Assembly: GCA_903899655.1 (NCBI GenBank)
Contig: CAIUKF010000008.1
Span: 1 to 64,000 of the forward strand
Source: an uncultured bacterium
GTDB taxonomy: Bacteria > Patescibacteriota > Saccharimonadia > Saccharimonadales > Saccharimonadaceae
Direction: 5' to 3'
DNA length: 64,000 nucleotides
The notes under the pieces are model-generated. The model did not search any database and was not told where the DNA came from. It worked only from the letters and a program-made list of their open reading frames with translations. Position 1 is the stretch's first letter; every line of letters starts with the position of its first letter. Shown piece after piece: positions 3,819-59,178 of the stretch. The position numbers were made by a program, and so were the translations under genes.

Positions 3819-6071
3819 ATGTCAAAAAAGAAAAAGTCATCACGCAAAAAAAAGTCAGACCACTCAGCGCCAAAGCACAGCTTGCCAGCCGGTTTTTGGG
3901 CTCAAGTTGGCGCATTATTTTTGATTGCGATATCAATACTACTAGTGACGGCGTGGTTTAATGCTGGTGGACCAGTGTTGGAATGGATGCACAAGGCAGC
4001 TTTGGATAGTATCGGTTATGCCGTTTTTGTTGTGCCGGCTTTGTTCGTCTATGTAGCAGTTGAAGTTTTCAGGGCCGAGGATAATCGTTTGCCGTTTGTC
4101 ATGAAGTTTGCGACGGCATCGGCTATATTGTGGTTTGCGGCCTTATTTGGTTTGTTTAAAAATGATCAAGGCTTAACTACTGGTGGCTTTGTTGGCGATT
4201 TGATTAACAAAGGCATGTTGATGCTAGTTAATTCAACTGTGGCTGTATTTTTGTATATATTATTGATATTTATAACCTTGTTGTTCATTATCCGCGTCTC
4301 ACCATTTACGATTATTAAAAAAATCTGGGATATGAGCCGTCGTGATACAACCGAATACGAGGCTAACGTTAAAGTTATGCGTAATGCAGCCGCGATTGAT
4401 GAGCCAAAATCATCAGGTATCGGCAGTTTCAAATTGAATGTTGGTGCCGCAGCAACAGATGTCGATTCGCCAGAATCAGGCAAAAAACAATCAGGACTGT
4501 CAAATTTGCGCGGTGGCTTTGTTCGCGATAAAGTCGCCGAAGAACAAGCGGCCTTAGTGACAGTTAGTGACCCAGATTGGCAGATGCCAAGTTTGGATTT
4601 GCTAGAAAAAAAGCAATCGCCAGCCGATCCAGGTGACGTGCAACAGAATGCTGCAATTATTAAAAATACTTTGGATGAGTTTGATATTGATGTCAAAATG
4701 GAAGGTGCTAATATTGGACCCCGTGTGACCCAATACACCCTTAGTCCACCTAGTGGTGTTAAATTAACCCGTATCACGGCACTGGAAACTAATATCGCCC
4801 TTAATCTGGCGGCTCAAAGTTTGCGTATCGAAGCGCCAATCCCTGGTCAAAAGGTAGTTGGTATCGAAGTGCCAAACCGCAAAGCAGCCGACGTCCGAAT
4901 TCACTCGGTCCTAACTAGCCGTCAATGGAAGTCGTGTACCGAACCATTAGCGTTTGCTATCGGTAAAGATATTTCTGGCGAAGCGGTGATTGGCGAACTT
5001 AACAAGATGCCACACTTACTGATTGCTGGTCAAACCGGCGCTGGTAAGTCAGTCATGATTAACACGATTTTGGCCAGTCTGTTGTACCACAACAGTCCCA
5101 GCGAAATGAAGTTGATTTTAGTCGACCCTAAACAGGTTGAAATGGCGTTGTACGAAGATATTCCACATTTGTTGACGCCAGTCATATCTGAACCTGACAA
5201 GACCATTAGCGCTCTTAAATGGGCTGTTAACGAGATGCAACGACGCTATACCTTGTTTGCTGAACATAAGGTCAAAGACATCAAATCGTACAACCAAAAA
5301 ATTCGTTCGGGCGGCACTAAAATTACCGTGTCTGACGACTTTGGCATTCCTCAAGAACACGAAACAGGTGCGATGCCATACATTGTGATTGTGATTGATG
5401 AGTTGGCTGACATGATGATGGTCGCGGCTCGTGATGCCGAGCTTCTCATTGTTCGTTTGGCTCAAAAAGCTCGTGCCGTTGGTATTCACTTGGTACTGGC
5501 AACGCAGCGTCCATCGGTTAACGTTATTACTGGTCTGATCAAGGCCAACGTGCCAGCCCGAATTGCATTTACGGTGGCTTCACAAATGGAAAGTCGAATT
5601 ATTTTGGACCAAGCTGGTGCCGAGAAGTTGCTGGGTCAAGGTGATATGTTATTGCTGACACCAAGTATGAGCAAGCCAAAACGTATTCAGGGTGCATGGG
5701 TAACAGATGAAGAATTGAACAAAATTGTGGCTCATTTGCACATGCAATCACCACCACAATATAACGACGAAGTTGTCAGCCAGCCAGTTCATTTGAACGG
5801 TAAGGGCGGCGTTGTGATGGACTTTGACGACAATAATAACGAAGATGATATGTACAAAGACGCTGTTCGATTAGTGATTGAAACCAACAAGGCTAGTACC
5901 AGCTTTTTGCAGATGCGCCTTCGTGTCGGTTATGCTCGGGCGGCTCGAATTATTCAGACGATGGAAGAGCAGGGTATTATTGGGCCAGCCGATGGCGCCC
6001 GACCACGTGAAGTACTGATTGACAGCTTGGACAGCCTTGGCGGCAATGGCGATCAATCTGACGAAATTTAG
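3819..6071 (+). CDS. ftsK: DNA translocase FtsK/SpoIIIE
   Basis: 750 aa. A septal DNA pump for chromosome segregation. The Lys-rich N-terminus is followed by about four membrane segments (residues ~25-170), a short linker, the alpha/beta motor with Walker A GQTGAGKS and Walker B VIVIDELADMM, and a C-terminal gamma winged-helix domain (~680-740) that in relatives reads KOPS/SRS orientation sites. The length is typical of compact SpoIIIE-type proteins. A 111-bp hairpin plus T-run follows and probably terminates transcription. Confidence 0.96.
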   Translation: MSKKKKSSRKKKSDHSAPKHSLPAGFWAQVGALFLIAISILLVTAWFNAGGPVLEWMHKAALDSIGYAVFVVPALFVYVAVEVFRAEDNRLPFVMKFATASAILWFAALFGLFKNDQGLTTGGFVGDLINKGMLMLVNSTVAVFLYILLIFITLLFIIRVSPFTIIKKIWDMSRRDTTEYEANVKVMRNAAAIDEPKSSGIGSFKLNVGAAATDVDSPESGKKQSGLSNLRGGFVRDKVAEEQAALVTVSDPDWQMPSLDLLEKKQSPADPGDVQQNAAIIKNTLDEFDIDVKMEGANIGPRVTQYTLSPPSGVKLTRITALETNIALNLAAQSLRIEAPIPGQKVVGIEVPNRKAADVRIHSVLTSRQWKSCTEPLAFAIGKDISGEAVIGELNKMPHLLIAGQTGAGKSVMINTILASLLYHNSPSEMKLILVDPKQVEMALYEDIPHLLTPVISEPDKTISALKWAVNEMQRRYTLFAEHKVKDIKSYNQKIRSGGTKITVSDDFGIPQEHETGAMPYIVIVIDELADMMMVAARDAELLIVRLAQKARAVGIHLVLATQRPSVNVITGLIKANVPARIAFTVASQMESRIILDQAGAEKLLGQGDMLLLTPSMSKPKRIQGAWVTDEELNKIVAHLHMQSPPQYNDEVVSQPVHLNGKGGVVMDFDDNNNEDDMYKDAVRLVIETNKASTSFLQMRLRVGYARAARIIQTMEEQGIIGPADGARPREVLIDSLDSLGGNGDQSDEI

Positions 6072-6082
6072 TAGTTGTATAT

Positions 6083-6193
6083 AAACCCCCTCGGGTCCTG
6101 CCGTCCGGTCCGCCCCTGATTTATAAAAAACTGATTACAGTTTTTGTAGTAAATCGGGGCCACCCCGCCGAACGTCACCCGCGGAATGGGTTT
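6083..6193 (+). repeat. Dispersed ~110-bp structured hairpin, copy 1 (likely also ftsK terminator)
   Basis: The sequence folds into one long imperfect hairpin. An inner stem (CCCC-GATTTA… with …TAAATC-GGGG, then ACTG-ATTA-CAGT at the tip) is closed by a GC-rich outer stem ending in AAACCC/GGGTTT. A T-run follows at once, so it probably works as the ftsK terminator. A close inverted copy lies at 32251-32359. At least four differences between the copies are paired changes that keep base pairing. Confidence 0.85.
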
Positions 6194-6312: not shown

Positions 6313-6663
6313 ATGAAAGAATATGAACTAATTGTTCTTGTTCATCCCGACCTAGAGGTCGACATCGAAGCGCCACTTAAAAAAGTACGCACACTTGTCA
6401 CATCAAATGGCGGAACTATTATCAAAGAAGATAGTTGGGGTAAAAAGAAACTAGCTTACCGATTGAAAAATCAGGATTTTGCTGTGTATGTCTATTTTGA
6501 CCTATCGCTACCTGCTGACGCATTGCTGAAAATCAGTAACACGCTAAACATTTCAGACGACGTATTGCGTTATTTGCTTGTAACCGCTGATATCAAAGGC
6601 CGCAAAGCTCTTGAAGAAGCCAAAGCAAGTGAATCAACTGATAAACCTGACATTAAGGAGTAA
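6313..6663 (+). CDS. rpsF: 30S ribosomal protein bS6
   Basis: 116 aa. Small-subunit protein that binds 16S rRNA together with S18. The MKEYELIVLVHPDLE opening and the central KKKLAYRLKNQ segment are typical of S6. The GAGGAGG Shine-Dalgarno is strong. It starts the conserved rpsF-ssb-rpsR cluster; ssb begins 6 nt after the stop. Confidence 0.96.
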   Translation: MKEYELIVLVHPDLEVDIEAPLKKVRTLVTSNGGTIIKEDSWGKKKLAYRLKNQDFAVYVYFDLSLPADALLKISNTLNISDDVLRYLLVTADIKGRKALEEAKASESTDKPDIKE

Positions 6664-32250: not shown

Positions 32251-32359
32251 AAACCCATTCCGCGGGTGACGTTCGTCGGGGTGGCCCCAATTTACTACAA
32301 AATGGTAATCCATTTTTATAAATTAGGGGCGGAACGGACGGCAGGACCCGAGGGGGTTT
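32251..32359 (-). repeat. Dispersed ~110-bp structured hairpin, copy 2
   Basis: Reverse-oriented copy of the 6083-6193 element. GC-rich blocks are almost identical, while stem positions differ in compensating pairs (G-C to A-T, C-G to T-A, T-A to G-C, G-C to T-A). It lies between the tRNA-Asp terminator and the gene at 31536. Nothing else is recognisable between 32160 and 32250. Confidence 0.85.
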
Positions 32360-32540
32360 AAATTTAGATCAGGTAAAATTGGGGTATTTTTTGGCCGGAC
32401 TATCGGCCTTTGGCCTCCTTCGCTCATTCGCGAAAAAATGTAAACACTTTTTCGCTTCATTCGCTACGCGACCCGGTGATTTACTCGCTGCGCTCGCTAT
32501 CACTGGCTCGAGTCCGAACCGAACTCGCTAGATATGAATA
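32360..32540. other. Palindrome-rich gene-free stretch
   Basis: Contains several short inverted repeats, including CGAAAAA/TTTTTCG (32431-32437 with 32448-32454) and GGCC-rich and GCTCGC-rich repeats around 32405-32415 and 32485-32510. No ORF or known RNA is recognised. Confidence 0.5.
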
Positions 32541-32578: not shown

Positions 32579-32654
32579 TGGCGGGCCCGGCCGGACTTGA
32601 ACCGGTGATCTCCTCCGTGACAGGGAGGCGTGATAACCACTACACTACGAGCCC
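32579..32654 (-). tRNA. tRNA-Asp(GTC)
   Basis: 76 nt with encoded CCA. Acceptor GGGCTCG/CGGGCCC, anticodon loop CTGTCAC, discriminator G73 as expected for Asp. Confidence 0.95.
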
Positions 32655-32857: not shown

Positions 32858-33235
32858 ATGAAAACAATTATATTAAAATCACTCAAAGAATTAGTAACTG
32901 ACAGATATTTGTTGGTCTTGTTATCTGTGCTGATACTTTTAGCTTTAAGTTTTGCTATCACTATTGGCTTATCGATTCATCCTAGCTATACGCAACAGAT
33001 ATCACACTACTCAGCATTTGGAATTACAAATTACTATATTGATCAATGGTATTATATTTTTGTTTTTGTGGCGTTTGGGATTGTTGCGGCTATTTTGCAT
33101 GTAATTATCTCGGTAAAACTGTTAATAGTCAAAGGGCACTCACTGGCTGTGATGTTTGCGTGGATTGGTATAGGTGTGATTATAATCGGCTGGGTAACAG
33201 CGTTAACTCTATTAAATTTACGGACGATGTTGTAA
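32858..33235 (+). CDS. Small polytopic membrane protein
   Basis: 125 aa, three hydrophobic helices (about 20-40, 65-90, 95-118) with little loop sequence. It is 4 nt before the glycosyltransferase and probably shares a transcript with tRNA-Thr. It may assist the glycosyltransferase; no family recognised. Confidence 0.65.
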   Translation: MKTIILKSLKELVTDRYLLVLLSVLILLALSFAITIGLSIHPSYTQQISHYSAFGITNYYIDQWYYIFVFVAFGIVAAILHVIISVKLLIVKGHSLAVMFAWIGIGVIIIGWVTALTLLNLRTML

Positions 33236-33239
33236 TTGT

Positions 33240-34895
33240 ATGACAGACCTAGAGCTACCTTTAGGCAAAAGAACGTTAAAATATAGGCTTTTTGAGATGT
33301 TGCCAGCTGTTTTGAGTTATGGAGCTTTAGGCTTATTAGTTATATTGTCGTTAGTTAGTCCGACTTTAGCGGCGATATATTTGCTTTTAGTGATTGTTAC
33401 ACTGTTAGTTAAGTCTATTGGCATAGCAATTCACACCATTCAAGGTAGTAGAAAACTAGAGGCAGCTAAAAAAGTTGATTGGCACCAAAGGTTAGCGGAT
33501 CTGGAAAATCCAAAAGAATCATACAATAAATCTAGGCCAGCTAGACTAAAAGGTTTTGATGCCTATGCGCATGTTGATAACTTACGATTAATGTCAGCTG
33601 ATCCTGATGTATTCCCAAAACCATCGCAATTATTTAATGCGGTTATAATTGCTACTTACAACGAGACTTATGATGTGTTGGCGCCAACTATACAATCTGT
33701 TATCGACAATACATATGACAATAACAAAATTATATTCACTTTAGCCTATGAAGAAAGAGGTGGTGAGGCAATAAAAAGTACAGCGCTACGGTTGAAAAAA
33801 GAGTTTGGCGATAAGTTTTACGTGTTCCATTTAGTAGAACACCCAAAAGATTTGCCTGATGAAGTAGTTGGTAAAGGTGCAAATATCACCTACGCTGGAC
33901 GATATTTGAAAAAGTGGTTAATTAAAGAGGGGATTGCATCAAAAAATGTCATAATGACGACTTTGGATTCTGATAATAGGCCACACCACACTTATCTTGA
34001 CTATGTAACTTACGAATATATTGTTCATGAGGATCGTAAGCATTTATCTTTCCAGCCAATATCGTTGTTTATGAGTAATATTTGGGATGCTCCAGCGCCA
34101 ATGCGCGTGATTGCGACTGGTAACTCATTTTGGAATATTATTAGTTCAATGCGCCCCCATACTTTGCGTAATTTTGCATCACACTCGCAACCAATGGATG
34201 CGTTGGAAGAAATGGATTTTTGGAGCGTTCGAACGATTGTTGAGGATGGTCATCAGTATTGGCGTAGTTATTTCTATTTTGGCGGCAACTACTCAGTACT
34301 ACCTATTTTTGTTCCAATTTATCAAGACGCGGTGCTGTCTGATACGTATCTAAAGACACTAAAGGCGCAATTTGTGCAATTAAGGCGCTGGGCATACGGC
34401 GCATCTGATGTACCGTACGTTGCTACTAGGTTATTTGCGCGTGATCGTAATGTTCCGTTACTAGGAGGCACTGCCAGATTATTGAGGTTGATTGATGGGC
34501 ACGTAACATTGGCCAGTGTGTCGCTGTTGGTGGCTTTTGGTGGTTGGGTGCCTTTATTTATTAATAGTGAAGCTACAAGAAGTATACCAGCGCACCAGCT
34601 ACCCGAAGTGGTTAGCATGATACAGCAAGTAGCATTGGTGGGACTTTTTATCACCGTGTTCTTTTCTTTCAAGATGCTACCTCCTCGACCCGAGAGGTAT
34701 AAAAAACGTCGGAATTTCTTTATGGTCGCTCAATGGATATTAATGCCGGTCACAGCAATTCTATATAGCGCCGTATCAGCTTTGTATTCACAAGGACGAC
34801 TGTTTGCTGGTAATTATCTTGATAAATTTGATGTAACCGATAAAGCAATCCATAAATCAATTGCTACTGTTAAAATTACATCTAGTACAAAGTAA
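33240..34895 (+). CDS. Membrane glycosyltransferase, family 2
   Basis: 551 aa. Two N-terminal membrane helices, a GT-A domain (VIIATYNETYDVLAPTIQS near 140, DSD metal site in TTLDSDNRPH near 245, QLRRWAYG near 380) and three C-terminal helices, as in processive cellulose-synthase-like enzymes. The (Q/R)xxRW motif suggests polymer or glycolipid synthesis; the sugar is unknown. Confidence 0.85.
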   Translation: MTDLELPLGKRTLKYRLFEMLPAVLSYGALGLLVILSLVSPTLAAIYLLLVIVTLLVKSIGIAIHTIQGSRKLEAAKKVDWHQRLADLENPKESYNKSRPARLKGFDAYAHVDNLRLMSADPDVFPKPSQLFNAVIIATYNETYDVLAPTIQSVIDNTYDNNKIIFTLAYEERGGEAIKSTALRLKKEFGDKFYVFHLVEHPKDLPDEVVGKGANITYAGRYLKKWLIKEGIASKNVIMTTLDSDNRPHHTYLDYVTYEYIVHEDRKHLSFQPISLFMSNIWDAPAPMRVIATGNSFWNIISSMRPHTLRNFASHSQPMDALEEMDFWSVRTIVEDGHQYWRSYFYFGGNYSVLPIFVPIYQDAVLSDTYLKTLKAQFVQLRRWAYGASDVPYVATRLFARDRNVPLLGGTARLLRLIDGHVTLASVSLLVAFGGWVPLFINSEATRSIPAHQLPEVVSMIQQVALVGLFITVFFSFKMLPPRPERYKKRRNFFMVAQWILMPVTAILYSAVSALYSQGRLFAGNYLDKFDVTDKAIHKSIATVKITSSTK

Positions 34896-58492: not shown

Positions 58493-59178
58493 GGGACGGT
58501 TCCCCTATGGCTAAAATATTATTGCTTATATAATACTTATGTTAAACTTAATGTATCGATAATTAACATATTACGAGGTAATGAAATGCCACGATTAGCC
58601 AGACAAAAAAGCCCTACAGGAATTTATCACGTTATGGTTCGTGGCATAAATAGGGATTATATATTCAGCACAGAAGAAGAAAAGAAGAATTATCTAAAGA
58701 TATTAGGTGATATAAAAGCTGATTCAAATTTTGAATTATATGCTTATATGATAATGGGTAATCATGTTCATTTATTAATCAAAGAGCAATCGGATGATAT
58801 TGGTAATATAATGAAACGAATTGGTGTTAGATATGCTGCATGGTACAACAAACTTCACAATAGAGTTGGTCATTTATTCCAAGATAGGTATAAAAGTGAA
58901 GCTATACTTGATGAAAAACAATTTTTAGCGACACTAAGATATATATTACAGAATCCAGTTAAGGCAAAACTATGTAAGACTCCAGACGGTTATAAATGGG
59001 GTAGTTGGAATGACTATATCTTTAGAAGTGGACTAACAGATATTGATCTTGCTTGTCAGATGTTATCAATTGATACAAATAGGCAAATTGATCAATTCAA
59101 AAAGTTTGTCAGTATCGAGACAGATGAAGAGTGTTTGGATTTTGATTAGTTATAGATTTAAGGAACCGTCCCCAAAAG
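58493..59178 (+). mobile_element. RAYT-type transposase unit with REP-like ends
   Basis: The transposase gene is flanked by inverted GGGGACGGTTCC (58494-58505) and GGAACCGTCCCC (59161-59172), each beside a short palindrome (GGGGA…TCCCC; CCCC…GGGG). This matches REP-associated or IS200-like elements. No target duplication identified. Confidence 0.75.
58586..59149 (+). CDS. REP-associated tyrosine transposase (Y1/IS200-like)
   Basis: 187 aa. HUH single-strand endonuclease: MGNHVHLLIK gives the HxH metal site, and YAAWYNKLHNRVGHLFQDRYK with the downstream alpha-helical part fits the RAYT family. Length is intact. It probably nicks REP hairpin ends via a Tyr. GAGGTAA ribosome-binding site. Confidence 0.9.
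   Translation: MPRLARQKSPTGIYHVMVRGINRDYIFSTEEEKKNYLKILGDIKADSNFELYAYMIMGNHVHLLIKEQSDDIGNIMKRIGVRYAAWYNKLHNRVGHLFQDRYKSEAILDEKQFLATLRYILQNPVKAKLCKTPDGYKWGSWNDYIFRSGLTDIDLACQMLSIDTNRQIDQFKKFVSIETDEECLDFD

Follow-up and report, generated by a model that had tools for sequence, protein, structure and literature searches.

The two hairpin repeats at 6083-6193 and 32251-32359 of the window (the whole 64,000-nucleotide stretch of Saccharimonadaceae DNA analyzed here) are probably members of a family of mobile palindromic DNA elements, non-autonomous and conserved in structure, that lie mostly just downstream of genes and are tolerated in frame inside them. This last property, seen where related genomes carry the element in frame within housekeeping genes, is the main point and is invisible from the window alone.

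Structure of the window copies and of the family

An earlier note, made from the window sequence, had described a pair of hairpins, one inverted relative to the other, and both are present at these positions. Copy 1 (6083-6193, plus strand) is 111 bp long with an outer AAACCC/GGGTTT stem, a trait of the subfamily to which the window copies belong, and copy 2 (32251-32359, minus strand) is 109 bp long. When aligned in one orientation, the two are imperfect palindromes with 91% identity over their full 111/109 bp, and their similarity is far beyond chance (E = 1e-37 in a DNA search of copy 1 against copy 2). A single long interrupted hairpin is predicted for each, with a z score of about -3 to -5 relative to shuffled sequences. 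The conserved core, which is the part common to the order, spans 6092-6181 in copy 1 (CGGGTCCTGCCG ... CGTCACCCG; plus strand; E = 2.6e-18 with covariance model R1) and 32263-32350 in copy 2 (minus strand; E = 1.4e-18 with the same model). All four compensatory stem changes that the note had listed are found in the alignment of copy 1 with copy 2. The change from G-C to A-T falls at the base of the distal stem, those from C-G to T-A and from T-A to G-C in the apical stem, and that from G-C to T-A in the middle helix.

The genomic contexts had also been read correctly. Copy 1 starts 11 bp past the stop codon of an ftsK-like gene (3819-6071, plus strand; named by the earlier note and by sequence resemblance), whose own C terminus is intact, and is followed by a gene that, judging from its resemblance, is probably rpsF (6313-6663, plus strand). 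Copy 2 lies about 220 bp from a tRNA-Asp gene (32579-32654, minus strand). The flank of copy 2 carries another repeat at 32415-32469 of the window (TCCTTCGCTCATTCGCGAAAAAATG...TTTTTCGC), with matches at several loci in four relatives.

The family as a whole folds as one hairpin. An invariant basal helix, CGGGT/ACCCG, is followed by a 3-nt bulge, and the hairpin also has a conserved pyrimidine mismatch, a covarying helix, and a conserved C-rich asymmetric internal loop, while the distal stem-loop changes freely. In copy 1, the alignment columns place the two halves of the mismatch at C 6101 and T 6175 (plus strand). The core consensus is CGGGTCCTGYCG-nnnnn-TCCGCCCCT-(variable stem-loop)-GGGTGCTGCCCCGC-nnnnn-CGYCACCCG, with one strand pyrimidine-rich and the other purine-rich.

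Among 95 distinct sequences, 93% of the cells in stem columns are paired, compared with 34 to 48% when the partners are slid by 1 to 3 columns, in an alignment that had been fitted to the covariance model; therefore, we additionally ran a tree-aware null, in which substitutions were redistributed among columns along a FastTree tree and pairs were scored by a G-test with APC (our own R-scape-like script, not R-scape). Under this null, 9 of the 22 stem pairs of the model covary (E <= 0.05). In total, ten column pairs reach significance, the tenth being the C.T/T.C mismatch itself (alignment columns 10-109; columns 10/92 in the core alignment), which swaps sides jointly and remains a mismatch. 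Since the mismatch persists though both of its sides change, it suggests recognition of shape, not mere complementarity. Selection on the structure of the element, as the earlier note had proposed, is supported by this significant covariation and by the existence of further copies: the covariance-model search of the genome and its relatives that the note named as a check yielded more than 100 in relatives. A result with no further copies and no significant covariation, which would have refuted the note, did not occur.

Distribution and turnover of the copies

A DNA search of the genome to which the window belongs (924,537 bases, 0.92 Mb, 18 contigs) recovered about 12 copies: six near full-length, one diverged (C14:20578), three with recognizable ends only, and two long forms whose middle has been replaced (C13:42369-42532 and C10:9676-9848). 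According to the covariance model, which covers a core of 88 positions, the family is present in 24 of the 28 genomes of the genus, each carrier having one to 14 copies, and in 62 of the 392 genomes of the order, most of the genomes compared appearing to be draft assemblies. Its distribution is patchy, extending over 17 of 156 genera in several families. The Saccharimonadales element is a dispersed palindromic repeat in the range of about 50 to 150 bp; the core measures 70 to 97 bp and the element up to about 110 bp here, with rare 40-bp mini forms and long forms of 143 to 173 bp. The long copies at L007 (1501-1664) and L008 (1366-1538) have in common a middle made of three short hairpins, whose linkers are conserved (TTCACGATTG, TCGGAA...TTTCCTTGCG) and whose stems differ by paired changes.

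The element has no match in Rfam at gathering or permissive thresholds, nor do further loci bearing it together with neighboring repeats, and it has no match in plasmid and phage collections. A pattern scan of viral contigs gave 70 matches to the left-arm motif, none of them with a right arm within 260 bases; because of this, we regard them as chance matches. Other repeats occur in the same surroundings. Namely, a second dispersed hairpin with the core CTGCAGCCCRAGTTCGACARGGCGCCGGGGCCC...GGAGCGAAGCCG lies at L024 (about 1713), L141 (about 1658), L142 (about 1694), L181/L186 (about 1199), and L214 (about 1855, reverse), some copies having long, locus-specific, near-perfect outer stems; it has no Rfam match and was not found in the window's own genome. 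In addition, the left flank of copy 6 (G000:C14, about 33130-33260) holds a repeat of about 130 bp that has a dozen matches in G007, several of them at contig ends.

Copies of the element have been gained or lost, copied to new sites, and changed in orientation. In two relatives, G016 and G011, the ftsK-rpsF spacer lacks copy 1, and the flanks there align at about 73 to 80%. The same presence and absence between species at a single site is seen for copy 5 (absent in G007) and c10 (absent in G016) at orthologous sites, and for intragenic copies in topA, tlyA, and other genes, of which empty homologs exist. Near-identical copies occupy unrelated sites: the exact 111-bp sequence of copy 1 (100% identical) recurs at a non-orthologous site in G020, where the window's own genome holds a long form that is oppositely oriented (L017 vs L007). 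Opposite orientations at orthologous sites are also found for L172/L178 and L202/L222. Other orthologous sites carry diverged copies in the same orientation with paired changes, for example, L198/L229 and L011/L018; intergenic sites of this kind, common to several species and diverged but conserving structure, are as compatible with a resident function as with a mobile element. No clear target-site duplication was seen in the empty-site alignments, in which homologs are 70 to 90% similar and a duplication of 2 to 3 bp could be missed.

Copies inside protein-coding genes

Of the 23 copies flanked on each side by 70 or more open codons, 22 keep the reading frame and contain no stop. If insertion were frame-blind, the expected chance of an in-frame, open copy would be about 0.13 each, a value guided by the openness of other copies, and the 23 copies are not fully independent owing to orthologous sites. 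None of the copies found in the window's own genome lies inside a gene, and the in-frame evidence comes from relatives. There, the element is inserted in unrelated conserved protein genes. MnmA, cysteine-tRNA ligase CysS (in two species), Der/EngA, TsaD, GltX, and Tgt score above the NCBIfam curated cut-off, and the stretches matched by these equivalog models stop or start at the insert. LepA (at a cut locus), TlyA, and a DusB-like protein fall below the cut-off but are clear, whereas TopA, ArgS, thioredoxin reductase, and the succinyl-CoA synthetase-like and DnaX-like proteins are probable hosts by resemblance only. Two in-frame copies each occur in the ArgS-like gene of L257 (ORF 2-2080) and the TlyA-like gene of L264 (ORF 991-1701).

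Most often, the frame runs antisense to the element as drawn (RVxxGGAAP...GADxxxGPA); some copies use the plus strand (AGPVxxSAP...GAAPxxATR) or other frames instead. The inserts would be translated as about 14 to 30 extra residues. An intron, or bypass of the copies, is less likely, since splicing or bypassing would not require them to be in frame and stop-free. At several loci from other genera (L149, L153, L154, L155, L160, L161, L162, and L163), a second short hairpin (CTCCCGTCGTC...CACGTAGGTCGCTG) is attached to the intragenic element, which makes the in-frame insert about twice as long.

In CysS, an insert of 29 residues separates ...DLLE from MGFPGWHLECS in two members of the genus, while a third species keeps the remnant RVAASG, and most others have no insert, in an alignment that omits five further members. 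CysS homologs in the PDB align on both sides and break at the insertion point. AlphaFold, run on CysS with 18 genus sequences, predicts a folded enzyme (pTM of 0.80) in which residues 218-244 have a pLDDT under 50; the insert, with a pLDDT of about 29, is modeled as a disordered loop. The cysS gene of G024 (L276) has about 30 unrelated residues in the same loop, which may be a hot spot or may hold a copy of another repeat family. Annotators should be aware that the element can be the origin of 30-residue inserts in Saccharibacterial enzymes.

Placement, mobilization, and known systems

Most copies lie between genes, mainly just past gene ends as judged by a simple ORF call, with a median distance from the upstream gene end of 20 bp (co+) or 32 bp (co-), and 30 intergenic copies occupy convergent sites vs 23 at divergent ones. 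The purine-rich minus strand is the commoner one in transcripts (44 vs 23 co-directional and 17 vs 5 intragenic copies; combined p = 0.0006, a value inflated by orthologous sites). Copy 1 is followed by ATTTTTTTA and may, to judge from its sequence, terminate ftsK transcription. The gene-end placement, the strong covariation of the stems, the tract past copy 1, and the recurrence of outer stems adjoining T runs in L198 and L229 all favor a family of structured RNAs or terminators, transcribed at gene ends, kept for termination or 3'-end stability, and spread only incidentally. We consider this rather unlikely: about 20 copies sit in housekeeping ORFs, where a terminator would be harmful; close relatives do without the element in the same ftsK-rpsF spacer; the conserved internal loops and mismatch are unnecessary for termination; and Rfam holds no match. 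The earlier note had left the choice among an RNA, a terminator family, and a REP/MITE-like element. Given the empty sites, the dispersed identical copies, and the copies inside genes, the third comes closest, although the GTAG/CGTC end tags and a consistent transposase partner are missing; only some of the intergenic copies could plausibly serve as terminators.

If the element is mobile, what moves it? Palindromes moved by an IS200/IS605-type Y1 transposase (REP/RAYT) would fit the REP-like location at gene ends, and a Y1_Tnp gene is present in 17 of the 28 genus genomes. The presence of this gene does not track the copy number of the element across the 28 genomes, however. Four of them hold 6 to 8 copies without a Y1_Tnp match (G004 with 8, G011 with 6, G001, and G015; two of these are <90% complete), and G025 and G026 have the transposase without the element. 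The window itself contains an IS200/IS605-type transposase-like gene (58622-58951; Y1_Tnp, PF01797), and none of the copies found in its genome lies near it. Neither a GTAG nor a CGTC tag was found at the termini: the core ends in CGGGT/ACCCG, and an internal CG(T/C)C is non-terminal and variable. The Y1 transposase is thus not a consistent partner, and we regard a REP/RAYT system as unlikely. Still less probable is a MITE of a DDE-type insertion sequence with long terminal inverted repeats. It would account for a dispersed imperfect inverted repeat that is present or absent at orthologous sites, but no target-site duplication is clearly seen, no autonomous relative appeared among the roughly 160 element loci read, and recognition of terminal inverted repeats on duplex DNA does not call for arms with conserved asymmetric loops and covariation. 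Integron attC sites are single hairpins with a constant base and a variable terminal structure. Our element is like them in architecture only, recalling their conserved base, bulges, unpaired spacer, and variable end; movement of an attC-like site, folded from one strand, by an integron-type tyrosine recombinase is nevertheless very improbable. No integron integrase scores above the NCBIfam cut-off in any of the 28 genus genomes, which gave only XerC/D-like matches, and AAC/GTT boxes and cassette arrays, or any cassette context, are absent.

For the non-autonomous palindromic mobile element that we favor, the following scheme can be proposed. The hairpin, as single-stranded DNA, a cruciform, or RNA, would be recognized through its constant loops by a putative enzyme, which would copy or insert the folded form. 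Host selection would then filter the insertions, and copies would persist where they are harmless, either just past gene ends, some perhaps as terminators, or in frame in surface loops of proteins, translated as extra residues. Tentatively, and with less confidence than in the mobility of the family, we suggest that the folded hairpin, with its constant bulge, mismatch, and C-rich loop, may be the substrate of a putative enzyme of ultra-small bacteria, and that the element may multiply, invert at its site, and extend essential proteins by new segments of 14 to 30 residues. If this is true, a selfish DNA hairpin would be a source of new protein loops in Saccharibacteria.

REPs are palindromes of 20 to 40 bp that carry a terminal tag, GTAG or CGTC, and lie for the most part downstream of genes; some tagged REPs sit inside genes (2013 study, PMC3733652). 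The Saccharimonadales element is likewise palindromic, mainly downstream of genes, and occasionally intragenic; unlike REPs, it is longer, has several helices, and lacks the terminal tag. MITEs such as ERIC, QMITE2, and Chunjie are non-autonomous and dispersed and form stable hairpins in transcripts (2024 review, PMC10969869). Our element resembles them in being non-autonomous, dispersed, and hairpin-forming, but neither a target-site duplication nor a parent transposon was seen in the loci read.

The best reading is that the element resembles Rickettsia palindromic elements (RPEs) as a kind; the likeness is one of behavior, and we do not claim descent from RPEs. Wolbachia palindromic elements are a further known system of this type. 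RPEs are repeats of about 150 bp in Rickettsia, often in frame in unrelated genes (PMC10969869), and RPE-4 and RPE-6 have been tied to CGTC-tagged REPs without a transposase (PMC3733652). As with RPEs, small palindromes are scattered through small bacterial genomes, some of them in frame in conserved genes unrelated to one another, where they would add a short peptide, and no dedicated transposase is known. In contrast, the element belongs to an unrelated phylum, measures about 75 to 110 bp rather than about 150 bp, uses several reading frames on both strands, and has conserved internal loops and a covarying mismatch, as demonstrated here. We found no relevant report of palindromic or MITE elements in Saccharibacteria or Patescibacteria among open-licence papers. 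Most known in-frame palindromic elements come from Rickettsia and, for the REP class, from a few other bacteria. The present family lies in a separate phylum whose genomes are very small, and its defined structure, its presence and absence between species, and its decaying CysS copy offer a comparative test system for how such hairpins move and affect proteins. Overall, the kind of element is known but little understood; the family and the phylum that it occupies are new for this kind, and the evidence of structure and in-frame tolerance is unusually clear.
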